In this document: piece by piece, positions 7,368 to 48,785 of the stretch
Layout of the letters: every line of letters begins with the position of its first letter
Position numbering within the stretch: the first letter of the stretch is position 1
Source of the DNA: Actinomycetes bacterium
Lineage (GTDB): Bacteria > Actinomycetota > Acidimicrobiia > Acidimicrobiales > JAMCPL01
DNA length: 64,000 nt
Direction: 5' to 3'
NCBI GenBank assembly: GCA_021841005.1
Contig: JAKBVZ010000008.1
Location: 1-64,000, forward strand
Translations under genes and position numbers: made by a program
The notes under the pieces: generated by a model
Databases searched by the model: none
Told to the model about the DNA's origin: nothing
What the model saw: only the letters and a program-made list of their open reading frames with translations

Positions 7368-7955
7368 ATGAGGTTTTTAGCGACAACGGCAGCGAGTTGG
7401 ACAACGATTGGGATACTTGGTGCGTTTATGGTTGCTTTGTTGACTATGACTTGGCAAAAAATGGATAGGCTTGCAGCGCGAATAGATGCACAGACCGCCA
7501 GGATAGATGCACAGACCGAGCGGATCGACGGCCTGCGTGTGGAGTTGAAGGAAGAAATAGCCGGCCAGACCGCCAGGATAGATGCACAGACCGAGCGGAT
7601 CGACGGCCTGCGTGTGGAGTTGAAGGAAGAAATAGCCGGCCAGACCGCCAGGATAGATGCACAGACCGAGCGGATCGACGGCCTGCGTGTGGAGTTGAAG
7701 GAAGAAATAGCCGGCCAGACCGCCAGGATAGATGCACAGACCGCCAGGATAGATGCACAGACCGAGCGGATCGACGGCCTGCGTGTGGAGTTGAAGGAAG
7801 AAATAGCCGGCCAGACCGCCAGGATAGATGCACAGACCGAGCGGATCGACCGACTTACTGTAGACGTTGGGCAGCTTAGGGCTGATTTCGGTGAGCTAAG
7901 AGGCGAGTTGCGAGGTCATGCGCACGATTCTTATACACATCAAGTGACGGTCTGA
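7368..7955 (+). CDS. membrane-anchored coiled-coil repeat protein
   Basis: A 195-residue protein of unknown function. Residues about 12-29 form one transmembrane helix (IGILGAFMVALLTMTW). From residue 33 on, the chain is almost pure coiled coil built of RIDAQTA or RIDAQTE heptads and a longer ELKEEIAGQTA segment, four times in register as a 25-residue unit, ending in DVGQLRADFGELRGELRG. The 7+7+11 pattern (heptads plus a hendecad) fits a long rod projecting from the membrane. The gene lies 135 bases after recA with its own weak ribosome site (TAAGGTGATT). Copy number probably varies between strains. No catalytic domain is visible. Confidence 0.75.
   Translation: MRFLATTAASWTTIGILGAFMVALLTMTWQKMDRLAARIDAQTARIDAQTERIDGLRVELKEEIAGQTARIDAQTERIDGLRVELKEEIAGQTARIDAQTERIDGLRVELKEEIAGQTARIDAQTARIDAQTERIDGLRVELKEEIAGQTARIDAQTERIDRLTVDVGQLRADFGELRGELRGHAHDSYTHQVTV
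7500..7850 (+). repeat. tandem 75-bp minisatellite inside the coiled-coil gene
   Basis: Identical 75-base units start at 7500, 7575, 7650 and 7746. A single 21-base half-unit (7725-7745, one RIDAQTA heptad) is inserted before the last, and a partial 30-base unit runs 7821-7850. All are multiples of three, so the frame is kept. Near-perfect identity indicates recent expansion or ongoing homogenisation. Confidence 0.95.
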
Positions 7956-26201: not shown

Positions 26202-27114
26202 CCGGACCGGAAAGGTCGCAGTAGTAACCGGAGCGGCTCATGGAATCGGCCGCGCAACCGCAATACGCTTGGACATGCTCGGATATTCAGTCGTAGCGAT
26301 AGACATTGTCCCGGAAGAAGATGCGGCACTTGCTGGATGGCATGAGTATGATGCCGCCGCACCCACACCCACTCCCACACCCACACCTACACCCACTCCT
26401 ACACCCACTCCTACACCCACTCCTACACCCACTCCTACACCCACTCCTACACCCACTCCTACACCCACACCCACACCCACACCCACAGACATACCTATCG
26501 TGTCGCGGTACTACCAGTGCGATGTATCTGACGAAGATGCAGTCTCACAAGTAATCGCCAGTATAGTATCCGATTACGGTCGTATAGATGTACTGGCCAA
26601 TGTGGCGGGAGTTGTACTTGTCAAGCCATTCCAGGAAACTTCCTGGGAGGAATACCGCAAGGTCGTGGATACCAACTTGGGAGGTACTTTCTTGATGTGC
26701 AAGTACACGATCCCGATCATGATCCAGACCAAGGGTGGATCGATAGTATGCATGGCATCCGTCTCCGGCCATGTCGGGCAGCGTGACCATGCACTCTACG
26801 GCTCGACCAAGGGGGCAATAATCTCCATGGTAAGGGCGCTCGCCTGGGAGTTGGCACCATACAGGATCAGGGTCAATTCAGTAAGCCCCGGCTCGGTCGA
26901 TACAGCCATGCTGCGCGGAGACATTTCCCTGGAGGCACAGCGGATGGGTCTTTCTTTTGATGAAGTGAAGGCTGAAAGGGAAGGCGAGCAGGCTCTGGGT
27001 CGCTGGGCTGAACCGGATGAGATAGCAGAGGCTGTCTGCTTTCTTGCCGGGGAATCAGCATCGTTTATCACTGGCACGGACCTGCTAGTGGATGGTGGGT
27101 GGGTAGCAAGGTAG
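26194..27114 (+). CDS. SDR-family oxidoreductase with a Thr-Pro repeat loop
   Basis: A short-chain dehydrogenase of 306 residues, longer than the usual 250 because of a repeat insertion. The cofactor motif is [10 protein letters not shown], followed by NVAGVVL, catalytic Ser in [15 protein letters not shown] (Tyr and Lys) and the C-terminal [10 protein letters not shown]. Residues about 55-98 are (Thr-Pro)n, inserted after the second strand (VVAIDI) and before YYQCDVSD, a surface loop next to the NAD(P) adenine site. The start is GTG 26194, after GGAGA, coupled to the BKACE gene. It probably oxidises the hydroxy precursor of the keto acid cleaved by BKACE. Confidence 0.92.
26361..26488 (+). 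repeat. Thr-Pro-coding minisatellite inside the SDR gene
   Basis: 128 bases of ACCCAC and ACTCCT/ACACCC hexamers, arranged mainly as a 12-base unit (CCCACTCCTACA) in the centre and ACACCC repeats at both edges. It encodes about 21 Thr-Pro dipeptides. The composition is strongly purine/pyrimidine-biased, and the frame is maintained. Confidence 0.95.
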
Positions 27115-27218
27115 CAAGGTGGAAGTGTATCCAGTGAGTGGACGTCTACGGAGTCGAATTGGGAGCAGCGCAGGATCTACCAGTAGCAAGGTGGAAGTGT
27201 ATCCAGTGAGTAGATGCC
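27111..27218 (+). repeat. 72-bp spaced direct repeat at the SDR stop codon
   Basis: The 29 bases at 27111-27139, which include the SDR stop codon, recur exactly at 27183-27211. Extended to 36 bases (27111-27146 and 27183-27218) they agree at 33 positions, and all three mismatches are transitions. The 36 bases between the copies are unrelated. The rest of the 206-base gap to the FAH-family gene holds nothing recognisable. Confidence 0.85.
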
Positions 27219-40732: not shown

Positions 40733-42051
40733 GCAGCAGTCCTTGCCTGCTCCAGTACGTAGTCTAGGTCTGCGTCGCTGTGCGCCAATCCGACGAACAG
40801 CGCCTCGTACGGACCAGGCGGGAGCATTACGCCGCCGTCCAGCATATGGTGGAAGAACTTGCTGTATATGCCGGTGGCGGCTGAAGCCGATGCGGCATCG
40901 TAGTCCGATACTGCGTTGCTTGTTCCGAAGAACATACTGCATAGCGTACCGTAGTGCTGGACGGTAGCTTCCAGCCCTGCATCACTCAGTGCAGCTTGAA
41001 GTCCTGCAACGAATGAATCCACCTTGCCTGCTAGCGCAGCAAACGCATCCTCATCCAAGCGGTTCAATACACTCAGACCTGCGGCTGTGGCGAGTGGGTT
41101 ACCCGAGAGTGTACCTGCCTGGTAAACAGGCCCAACGGGTGCAAGTTGCTTCAGTAATTCGGTCCTTCCGCCGAACGCCGCAAGAGGCAGTCCGCCACCG
41201 ATGACCTTGCCGAAGCAGTAGATATCCGGTATCACGCCACATATGGTTGACGCGTTGCTGTAAGCTACCCTGAAGCCGGTGATTACTTCGTCGAAGATGA
41301 GCAGGGCACCGACAGCATTACATGCTGTACGCAATCCTTGTAGGAAGCCTGGCACGGGAGGCACTACGCCCATATTGGCTGCAACTGGTTCCACTATCAC
41401 GCATGCCACTTTTTCATCCAGCACGTCACGGGAAGGCACCTGGTTGTATGGGCATATTATGGTGTCGCTTACACTCGCAACAGGCACACCTGCAGACCCA
41501 GGCAGCGAGTCAGGCAGGTATCTTGCCTCCGTCACCGACCCGGACCCGGACCCCGACCCGGATAGCCCCATGGTGGCGACGCCACTGCCGCTTTTGGCCA
41601 GCAATCCGTCCGAGTGACCATGGTAGCAGCCTGCGAACTTGATCATCCGGTCCCTTCCGGTGACTCCCCTTGCCAGACGTATGGCGCTCATTGCGGCCTC
41701 AGTGCCTGACGATACAAACCGCACCTGGTCGCAACCGGGCACTCTTGCGCATATCTCCTCTGCAAGCAGCACCTCGCCTCTGGTAGGGGTACCGAACGTC
41801 GTGCCCTTGCTGACTGCATCGTAGAGAGCACTAGTGATACCTGGATCGGCATGGCCGAGGATGACTGCACCGTACGACTGGATCATGTCCACGTACCGGT
41901 GACCATCCACATCGTAGAGGTATGCCCCCTTGCCGTGGTCCACCGTTACGGGGGTACCGCCTACAGAGCTGAAGGATCGCACTGGTGAGTCCACCCCCCC
42001 CGGGATCACTCGTTGGGCTCTTGCGAACCACTCATCATTGAGATCGTTCAT
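40708..42051 (-). CDS. hemL: glutamate-1-semialdehyde 2,1-aminomutase
   Basis: A 447-residue PLP enzyme that makes 5-aminolevulinate from glutamate-1-semialdehyde. Seen: ARAQRVIPGGVDSPVRSF, VRFVSSGTEAAMSAIRLAR, GCYHGHSDGLL, LIFDEVITGFR and the PLP lysine in CFGKVIGGGLP. ATG 42051 begins MNDLNDEWFARAQ, as in homologues. A short SGSGSGSG insertion sits near residue 165. The start region is duplicated upstream (see 42048-42131). It is last in the GGR-hemA-hemC-cobA/hemD-hemB-hemL run. Confidence 0.97.
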   Translation of the reverse strand: MNDLNDEWFARAQRVIPGGVDSPVRSFSSVGGTPVTVDHGKGAYLYDVDGHRYVDMIQSYGAVILGHADPGITSALYDAVSKGTTFGTPTRGEVLLAEEICARVPGCDQVRFVSSGTEAAMSAIRLARGVTGRDRMIKFAGCYHGHSDGLLAKSGSGVATMGLSGSGSGSGSVTEARYLPDSLPGSAGVPVASVSDTIICPYNQVPSRDVLDEKVACVIVEPVAANMGVVPPVPGFLQGLRTACNAVGALLIFDEVITGFRVAYSNASTICGVIPDIYCFGKVIGGGLPLAAFGGRTELLKQLAPVGPVYQAGTLSGNPLATAAGLSVLNRLDEDAFAALAGKVDSFVAGLQAALSDAGLEATVQHYGTLCSMFFGTSNAVSDYDAASASAATGIYSKFFHHMLDGGVMLPPGPYEALFVGLAHSDADLDYVLEQARTAASKTAMHL

Positions 42052-42131
42052 TTCAAGTCCGCTGCGGCCACTATGCCGCAGCCCGTGCACTGTGCGAACC
42101 ACTCATCATCGAGATCGTTCATTTCAAGTCC
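42022..42131 (-). repeat. 71-bp spaced duplication of the hemL start region
   Basis: Bases 42022-42060, covering the hemL start codon, ribosome site and first codons, recur at 42093-42131 with a single transition (38 of 39 identical). The 32 bases between them are unrelated. Both copies carry an ATG in the same local context. Confidence 0.92.
42048..42122 (-). CDS. possible 24-codon upstream ORF coupled to hemL
   Basis: The duplicated start region gives a second ATG at 42122. Its frame runs 24 codons, starting MNDLDDEWFAQC and containing a CTGCG motif, and stops in an ATGA overlap with the true hemL start. Whether it is translated is unknown. If it is, ribosomes could reach hemL by termination-reinitiation. 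It arose from the duplication, so it may simply be a decoy. Confidence 0.3.
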   Translation of the reverse strand: MNDLDDEWFAQCTGCGIVAAADLK

Positions 42132-48597: not shown

Positions 48598-48785
48598 GTA
48601 ACTCTTGTTGCCGCCAGCAGGAATGCGTGTGATTACGAATAAATGGCTTGGCGAACTGCTGCGAATCCCATCAGTAACTCTTGTTGCCGCCAGCAGGAAT
48701 GCGTGTGATTGCAATCGGATGGGAGGAGGAGATTGGACGGAGCGTCCTGCCTGTTGTCACCGCCAGGAATGCGTGTGATTGCAAT
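48598..48785. repeat. three-copy CRISPR-like repeat set between GGR gene and nuoA
   Basis: A 37-base sequence at 48598-48634 recurs exactly at 48674-48710 (offset 76). A degenerate third copy lies at 48744-48780 (offset 70, 28 of 37 positions; the last 16 bases exact). Copies 2 and 3 also share the next five bases, GCAAT. The intervening stretches of 39 and 33 bases are unrelated. Repeat length, spacer length and a degenerate end copy look like a miniature CRISPR array. However, there are no cas genes, and the position in a divergent promoter region fits regulatory sites equally well. Confidence 0.75.

Follow-up and report, generated by a model that had tools for sequence, protein, structure and literature searches.

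Most of what is known about off-target spacer integration comes from overexpression and in vitro experiments. The experiments in Escherichia coli reportedly used overexpressed type I-E Cas1-Cas2 and found insertions at sites resembling the native locus, and the same study is said to have proposed a small number of natural examples, from Yersinia pestis and Sulfolobus islandicus. This non-canonical (off-target) integration by Cas1-Cas2 has been described under the name 'neo-CRISPR' (Nivala, Shipman and Church 2018, Nat Microbiol 3:310, as cited in PMC11788318 and PMC9456107). Canonical adaptation of type I-G systems takes place at the leader-repeat junction and is PAM-directed, and its integrase is represented by the structures of GsCas4/1 (7mi4-7mid) and by MbCas4/1, for which spacer-side integration was imprecise in vitro (PMC10504553). 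Two further types of sequence are relevant for comparison, namely the dispersed hairpins of the REP or MITE-like kind and the orphan (isolated) CRISPR mini-arrays, which usually carry a known CRISPR repeat (viral mini-arrays are reviewed in PMC8616872).

The window analysed here is the whole 64,000-nucleotide stretch of an Actinomycetes genome, and the sites found in it and elsewhere in the same genome resemble each of these systems in part. As the citing papers present neo-CRISPR, it shares with these sites a spacer-sized insert and a repeat-sized target duplication in the chromosome, outside any CRISPR array. In contrast to the E. coli cases, the sites lie in a naturally occurring genome that encodes a type I-G system, occur at about 5 events per 100 kb, draw some of their inserts from the host genome and include a dominant hairpin insert. 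The likeness to type I-G adaptation consists of a homologous Cas4/1 with cas2 adjoining, an array with 36-bp repeats and insert lengths that fit, but the targets are dispersed and a PAM was not apparent. A short perfect hairpin, dispersed in around 80 copies, is reminiscent of REP or MITE-like sequences, although here there are no fixed ends, the target duplications are on the 36-bp scale and no hairpin lies near the one IS200-like transposase gene. Finally, two to three repeats around spacer-sized sequence, away from cas genes, are what orphan mini-arrays look like, except that the repeat is different at every site here and is a copy of the target. No report of a natural genome with dozens of off-target integrations was found in the literature searched, coverage of which was incomplete.

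The repeat site upstream of nuoA

The site at 48598-48785 is flanked on one side by a minus-strand gene for a geranylgeranyl-reductase-like FAD enzyme (GGR) and on the other by nuoA; no cas gene was found in the neighbourhood of the window, and no known RNA family was detected across the window. Two exact 37-bp target copies (37/37) occupy 48598-48634 and 48674-48710, with starts 76 bp apart, and a degenerate copy with 76% identity follows 70 bp beyond the second, at 48744-48780. The exact pair, the degenerate third copy and the two spacings, which had been given in a preliminary description of the window, were verified, as was its remark that no cas gene is visible in the window; the two cas1 loci of the genome are on other contigs. 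For copies 2 and 3 a register shifted by +5 gives the better fit, in which 48749-48785 agrees with 48679-48715 at 31 of 37 positions, and the 22 bases CAGGAATGCGTGTGATTGCAAT at 48694-48715 are found again, exactly, at 48764-48785. The spacer-like insert 1 (39 bp) occupies 48635-48673, and insert 2 (33 bp) occupies 48716-48748 in the register based on the shared GCAAT, or 48711-48743 in the register first proposed. Neither insert has a second copy in scans of its own genome, and searches of the intergenic site and its inserts against phage and plasmid records returned no match, an absence that carries little weight when the host is uncultured.

The core of the repeat, CAGGAATGCGTGTGATT, is found at three places in the window, where chance would predict 0.21. 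In a search of the whole genome with up to two mismatches, the only occurrence outside the window was a single two-mismatch site on contig C8. The palindrome previously noted at the repeat edge, ATTGCAAT, is present in copies 2 and 3 and missing from copy 1. The repeat also differs in sequence from the repeats of both CRISPR arrays of this genome.

The closest relative is G004, an actinobacterial sediment metagenome assembly (contig in public record JAMCPL010000008.1), which is 93% identical around the site. At the same place this sister genome has exactly one target copy, and 146 bp, equivalent to two repeat-plus-insert units, are missing; both inserts are absent. More distant members of the genus gave no alignment in this intergenic stretch. 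When the window site is considered alone, a gain in this genome and a repeat collapse in G004 would both fit the sequences. Target copy 3 probably marks the older event.

Solitary repeat pairs and the sources of their inserts

A scan for pairs of 26-48 bp repeats, from which the two canonical CRISPR arrays, low-complexity tandems and protein repeats were taken out, found 63 solitary pairs with a spacing of 66-78 bp in 1.19 Mb of this genome, compared to 1.3 expected from the rate at other spacings. The dimensions are narrow, with a start-to-start spacing of 72.4 ± 1.6 bp, a modal repeat of 36-37 bp and a modal insert of 35-37 bp, and for pairs of 28-48 bp the 70-74 bin holds 55 as against 0-6 in each of the remaining 5-bp bins between 45 and 400. 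Target sequences differ from pair to pair and are mutually unrelated, with no detectable secondary structure and, in the 34 targets compared, no strong motif at one end or the other; they also lack the likeness to the native leader or repeat that the E. coli sites reportedly show. By a rough ORF rule, long reading frames contain about half of the pairs and about a quarter lie in clearly non-coding DNA, and the spacing is divisible by 3 at 17 of 34 genic sites and at 4 of 17 clearly intergenic ones. The sites include L038:4192, L033:11077 and L086:15406; many genic insertions are of 72 bp and add 24 codons in frame, and others break the frame.

The window contains a second such site at 42022-42131, between hemB and hemL, where 39-bp target copies (38/39) with starts at 42022 and 42093, 71 bp apart, enclose a 32-bp insert with the hairpin GCTGCGGC-CACTAT-GCCGCAGC. 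This duplication takes in the start region of hemL, so that the gene start is partly duplicated, and the corresponding sister sequence is rearranged, with no clear second copy. A probable third and older site lies at 27111-27214, with copies of 29 bp (exact; 32 bp at 97%) whose starts at 27111 and 27183 are 72 bp apart and which have about 40 bp between them; the sister genome has sequence of similar length there. The window also contains tandem repeats of an in-gene-like kind at 7482-7864 and 833-1132 (75-bp and 165-bp periods), which are ordinary and outside the pattern.

In the part of G004 examined, 24 sites have alignable flanks: 12 are cleanly single-copy, with exactly one target copy each, 2 are occupied in both genomes and 10 are further rearranged, the window site being counted among these last solely for its two missing units. 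The reverse comparison of four G004 sites gave two that are single-copy here, one that is occupied in both and one that is unclear. G004 itself has 16 pairs in 795 kb (about 2 per 100 kb), and the same scan yielded 0-1 pairs in stretches of 60-80 kb each from G002, G005, G007 and G027, and none in 63-100 kb each from the I-G carriers G016, G018 and G040. Another I-G carrier of the order, G039, has two pairs within one 20-kb stretch beside its CRISPR locus (L139:3027 and L139:6417 on G039:C52; solitary pairs of 37-39 bp / 33-37 bp), possibly the result of the same process.

Empty sites in one relative alone leave room for precise deletion in that relative, but insertion is favoured by the donors found for some inserts. 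For five of the 53 non-hairpin inserts from both genomes (three from this genome, two from the sister), a near-exact match over the full insert length exists at another locus, and the donor similarity stops at, or a few bases from, the insert ends. The insert at L032:12614 is identical to L059:10729-10765 (37/37), and those at L026:2387 and L098:13501 match other loci at 39/40; the repeat at L026:2387 exceeds 36 by 5 bp, with target and donor agreeing there. Spacer 45 of the III-B array in this genome shares 24 of 25 overlapping bases with the insert at L032:15933 (E=8e-7), and therefore the ectopic insert and the canonical spacer sampled the same element; no exact viral copy of this insert was found. 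No PAM is apparent at the few donors. The remaining inserts have no source in the half-genome examined, and the inserts tested against phage records, which cover most of the non-hairpin ones, had no match; a foreign origin is plausible for those that are source-less. At L093:3203 the insert has TAGTTACCTGAGT in common with the flank directly to its right, which suggests a donor adjoining the target.

CRISPR-Cas loci and the proposed integration

Two CRISPR-Cas loci are present in the genome: a type I-G locus on contig C19, with cas2, a Cas4/1 fusion (534 aa), cas3, csb2, csb1 and an array of 36-bp repeats, and a type III-B locus on contig C33, with another Cas1 and an array of 59 repeats, likewise of 36 bp. 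Part of the I-G array lies at the end of contig C24 (G000:C24:242230-242757) and part at the start of C19 (C19:155-1473), and the two contigs therefore probably join. Thus cas1 and cas2 occur in the same cell, with cas2 adjoining Cas4/1, and both Cas1 proteins, when aligned to GsCas4/1 (7mi4), keep the catalytic E and H/D motifs. The Cas1 domain of Cas4/1 (L025:1972-3576, on C19) has HSSSRNKPALALD where GsCas4/1 has HQPRFGRPALALD; the usual HxPRxGRP-like motif is kept in GsCas4/1, in the III-B Cas1 of this genome and in several relatives, and several other Cas1 proteins of the order have an H-P-R-G-P-like form. It is a guess that the change may loosen target choice. The mean insert length of the pairs, 35.4-36.4 bp, can be compared with mean spacer lengths of 35.4 bp (I-G) and 38.8 bp (III-B). 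If a 37-bp duplication is assumed, the inserts agree with the I-G spacers (p=0.95) and disagree with those of III-B (p=4e-16); with a 36-bp duplication the I-G fit is weaker (p=0.008), and III-B lengths are rejected either way. The acting integrase is probably the type I-G one with the Cas4/1 fusion.

We consider it likely, with a probability of roughly 80%, that both the window repeats and the genome-wide pairs stem from off-target spacer integration by Cas1-Cas2. The reasons are the two-ruler geometry and its match to the array dimensions, its recurrence at unrelated targets, the sites that have a single copy in the sister, the derivation of some inserts from captured DNA, and the intact-looking cas1 genes together with the I-G cas2; from these observations we infer Cas1-Cas2 as the enzyme, which Cas1 was involved and the order of steps. 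Specifically, a Cas1-Cas2 integrase would capture DNA fragments of about 35 bp and join each of them to an ordinary chromosomal target by staggered strand transfer at positions about 36-37 bp apart, and gap repair would then duplicate the target, leaving a target-insert-target arrangement. At the window site, a second event at nearly the same target would have led to three target copies and two inserts, a miniature 'neo-CRISPR'. Judging by sequence, no crRNA is probably made from any such site, because the repeats are unlike the repeat of either system.

Several observations count against Cas1-Cas2. Events are found in G004 (two of them single-copy here), yet its assembly, which is 91% complete, yielded neither a cas1 gene nor the I-G repeat. 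Related I-G carriers have few or no pairs, and there is neither an apparent PAM nor a strong target motif. The abundant hairpin class described below would not be predicted by simple off-target integration and, for the window site in particular, neither insert has a known source.

Hairpin inserts and alternative mechanisms

The hairpin GCTGCGGC-ATAGTG-GCCGCAGC, with a short conserved border, is part of 19 of the 63 inserts. This genome has 81 copies of it (47 exact) and G004 has 20 (1 exact); none was found in the 39 other relatives searched, and there are no exact viral copies. Relative to the hairpin core, the insert boundaries shift by up to 9 bp, and the insert at L095:14434 is identical to a 35-bp window over the insert/target junction of the copy at L097:11785; therefore, this is not an element with fixed ends, and an inserted copy has been recopied at least once. 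Head-to-tail hairpin units in 2-4 copies, with a period of 72-73 bp, occur at G000 C15:25861-26028, C32:27712-27954, C27:15338-15433, C36:5650-5745 and C24:83445-83540, and look as if an insert-plus-target had later been expanded by ordinary recombination. Two ideas on the origin of the class were rejected. Copying mainly from existing copies would need donors, and among the copies examined a full-length donor was found for only 1 of the 22 hairpin inserts (19 from this genome and 3 from the sister); derivation from the III-B repeat is not claimed, given a similarity that is weak (one of four shuffle tests gave p=0.02). A tentative suggestion, based on the copy number, on the share of ectopic inserts and on the one copy traceable to an inserted copy, is that the hairpin may be a selfish sequence of about 30 bp that is preferentially captured as a prespacer and pasted by the host CRISPR integrase, that is, a parasite of adaptation with neither an enzyme of its own nor fixed ends. 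In Sulfolobus, Cas1 is reported to bind single-stranded DNA that contains a stem-loop, and an accessory factor to restrain extra-array integration (PMC9456107); this may serve as a lead, and as a lead only, for the hairpin preference.

The hairpin family, present in this genome and the sister and in none of the other relatives searched, could also be taken as the mark of a mobile mini-element system, in which a non-Cas1, transposase-like enzyme would move DNA of about 35 bp, notably the hairpin, with target duplications of 36-37 bp; the genome does contain one intact IS200-like Y1 transposase gene. However, IS200-type elements are not known to make target duplications and no hairpin lies near the Y1 gene, 44 of the 63 inserts are without the hairpin and several come from arbitrary loci, and both the sliding ends and the junction-spanning insert speak against fixed ends, so that we regard such a system as unlikely. 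Template switching during replication, or the repair of breaks with filler DNA, produces tandem duplications and short templated inserts, and would account for inserts templated elsewhere, for the partial match of L093:3203 to its adjacent flank and for the long repeat at L026:2387. What it would not lead one to expect is the combination of narrow spacing (sd 1.6 bp) and narrow repeat length, with other spacings almost empty, and it appears highly improbable.

The remaining alternatives concern the window site and were raised in the preliminary description. Its impression of a tiny CRISPR geometry held in so far as repeats of 36-37 bp and inserts of 33-39 bp match the arrays of the genome and recur at dozens of unrelated sites, but the site does not qualify as an orphan array built on a known repeat. 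A true orphan array with its own repeat type, making crRNAs, would be in keeping with three repeats around two different spacers of CRISPR-like lengths and with CRISPR effectors encoded on other contigs, yet the repeat, far from being shared or recurring as in a functional array, is unrelated to both array repeats, unique to the site and, in the sister, ordinary intergenic sequence present once; the lack of phage or plasmid matches adds weakly to this, and we give this reading even less credence than template switching. The least probable reading of all is that the copies are regulator binding sites between the divergent GGR and nuoA promoters. The position between divergent genes would suit such sites, but the core recurs nowhere else in the genome, the two-mismatch site aside, and the intergenic region of the sister has it once and works without extra units. 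The option that proved right was membership in a wider pattern of about 70 bp, and it is off-target spacer integration that best fits the genome-wide data.

For annotation, array-calling programs that accept two or three repeats would misread such sites as CRISPRs. On-target control of Cas1-Cas2 becomes testable by comparing this Cas4/1 with its well-behaved relatives. At 5.3 per 100 kb over 2.45 Mb, the genome would carry an estimated 130 scars and, if off-target spacer integration is indeed their cause, a CRISPR integrase can be a genome-wide mutator that reshapes a natural genome, in which integration would lengthen genes (often by exactly 24 codons), disrupt others, seed new arrays and leave dated records of captured DNA.
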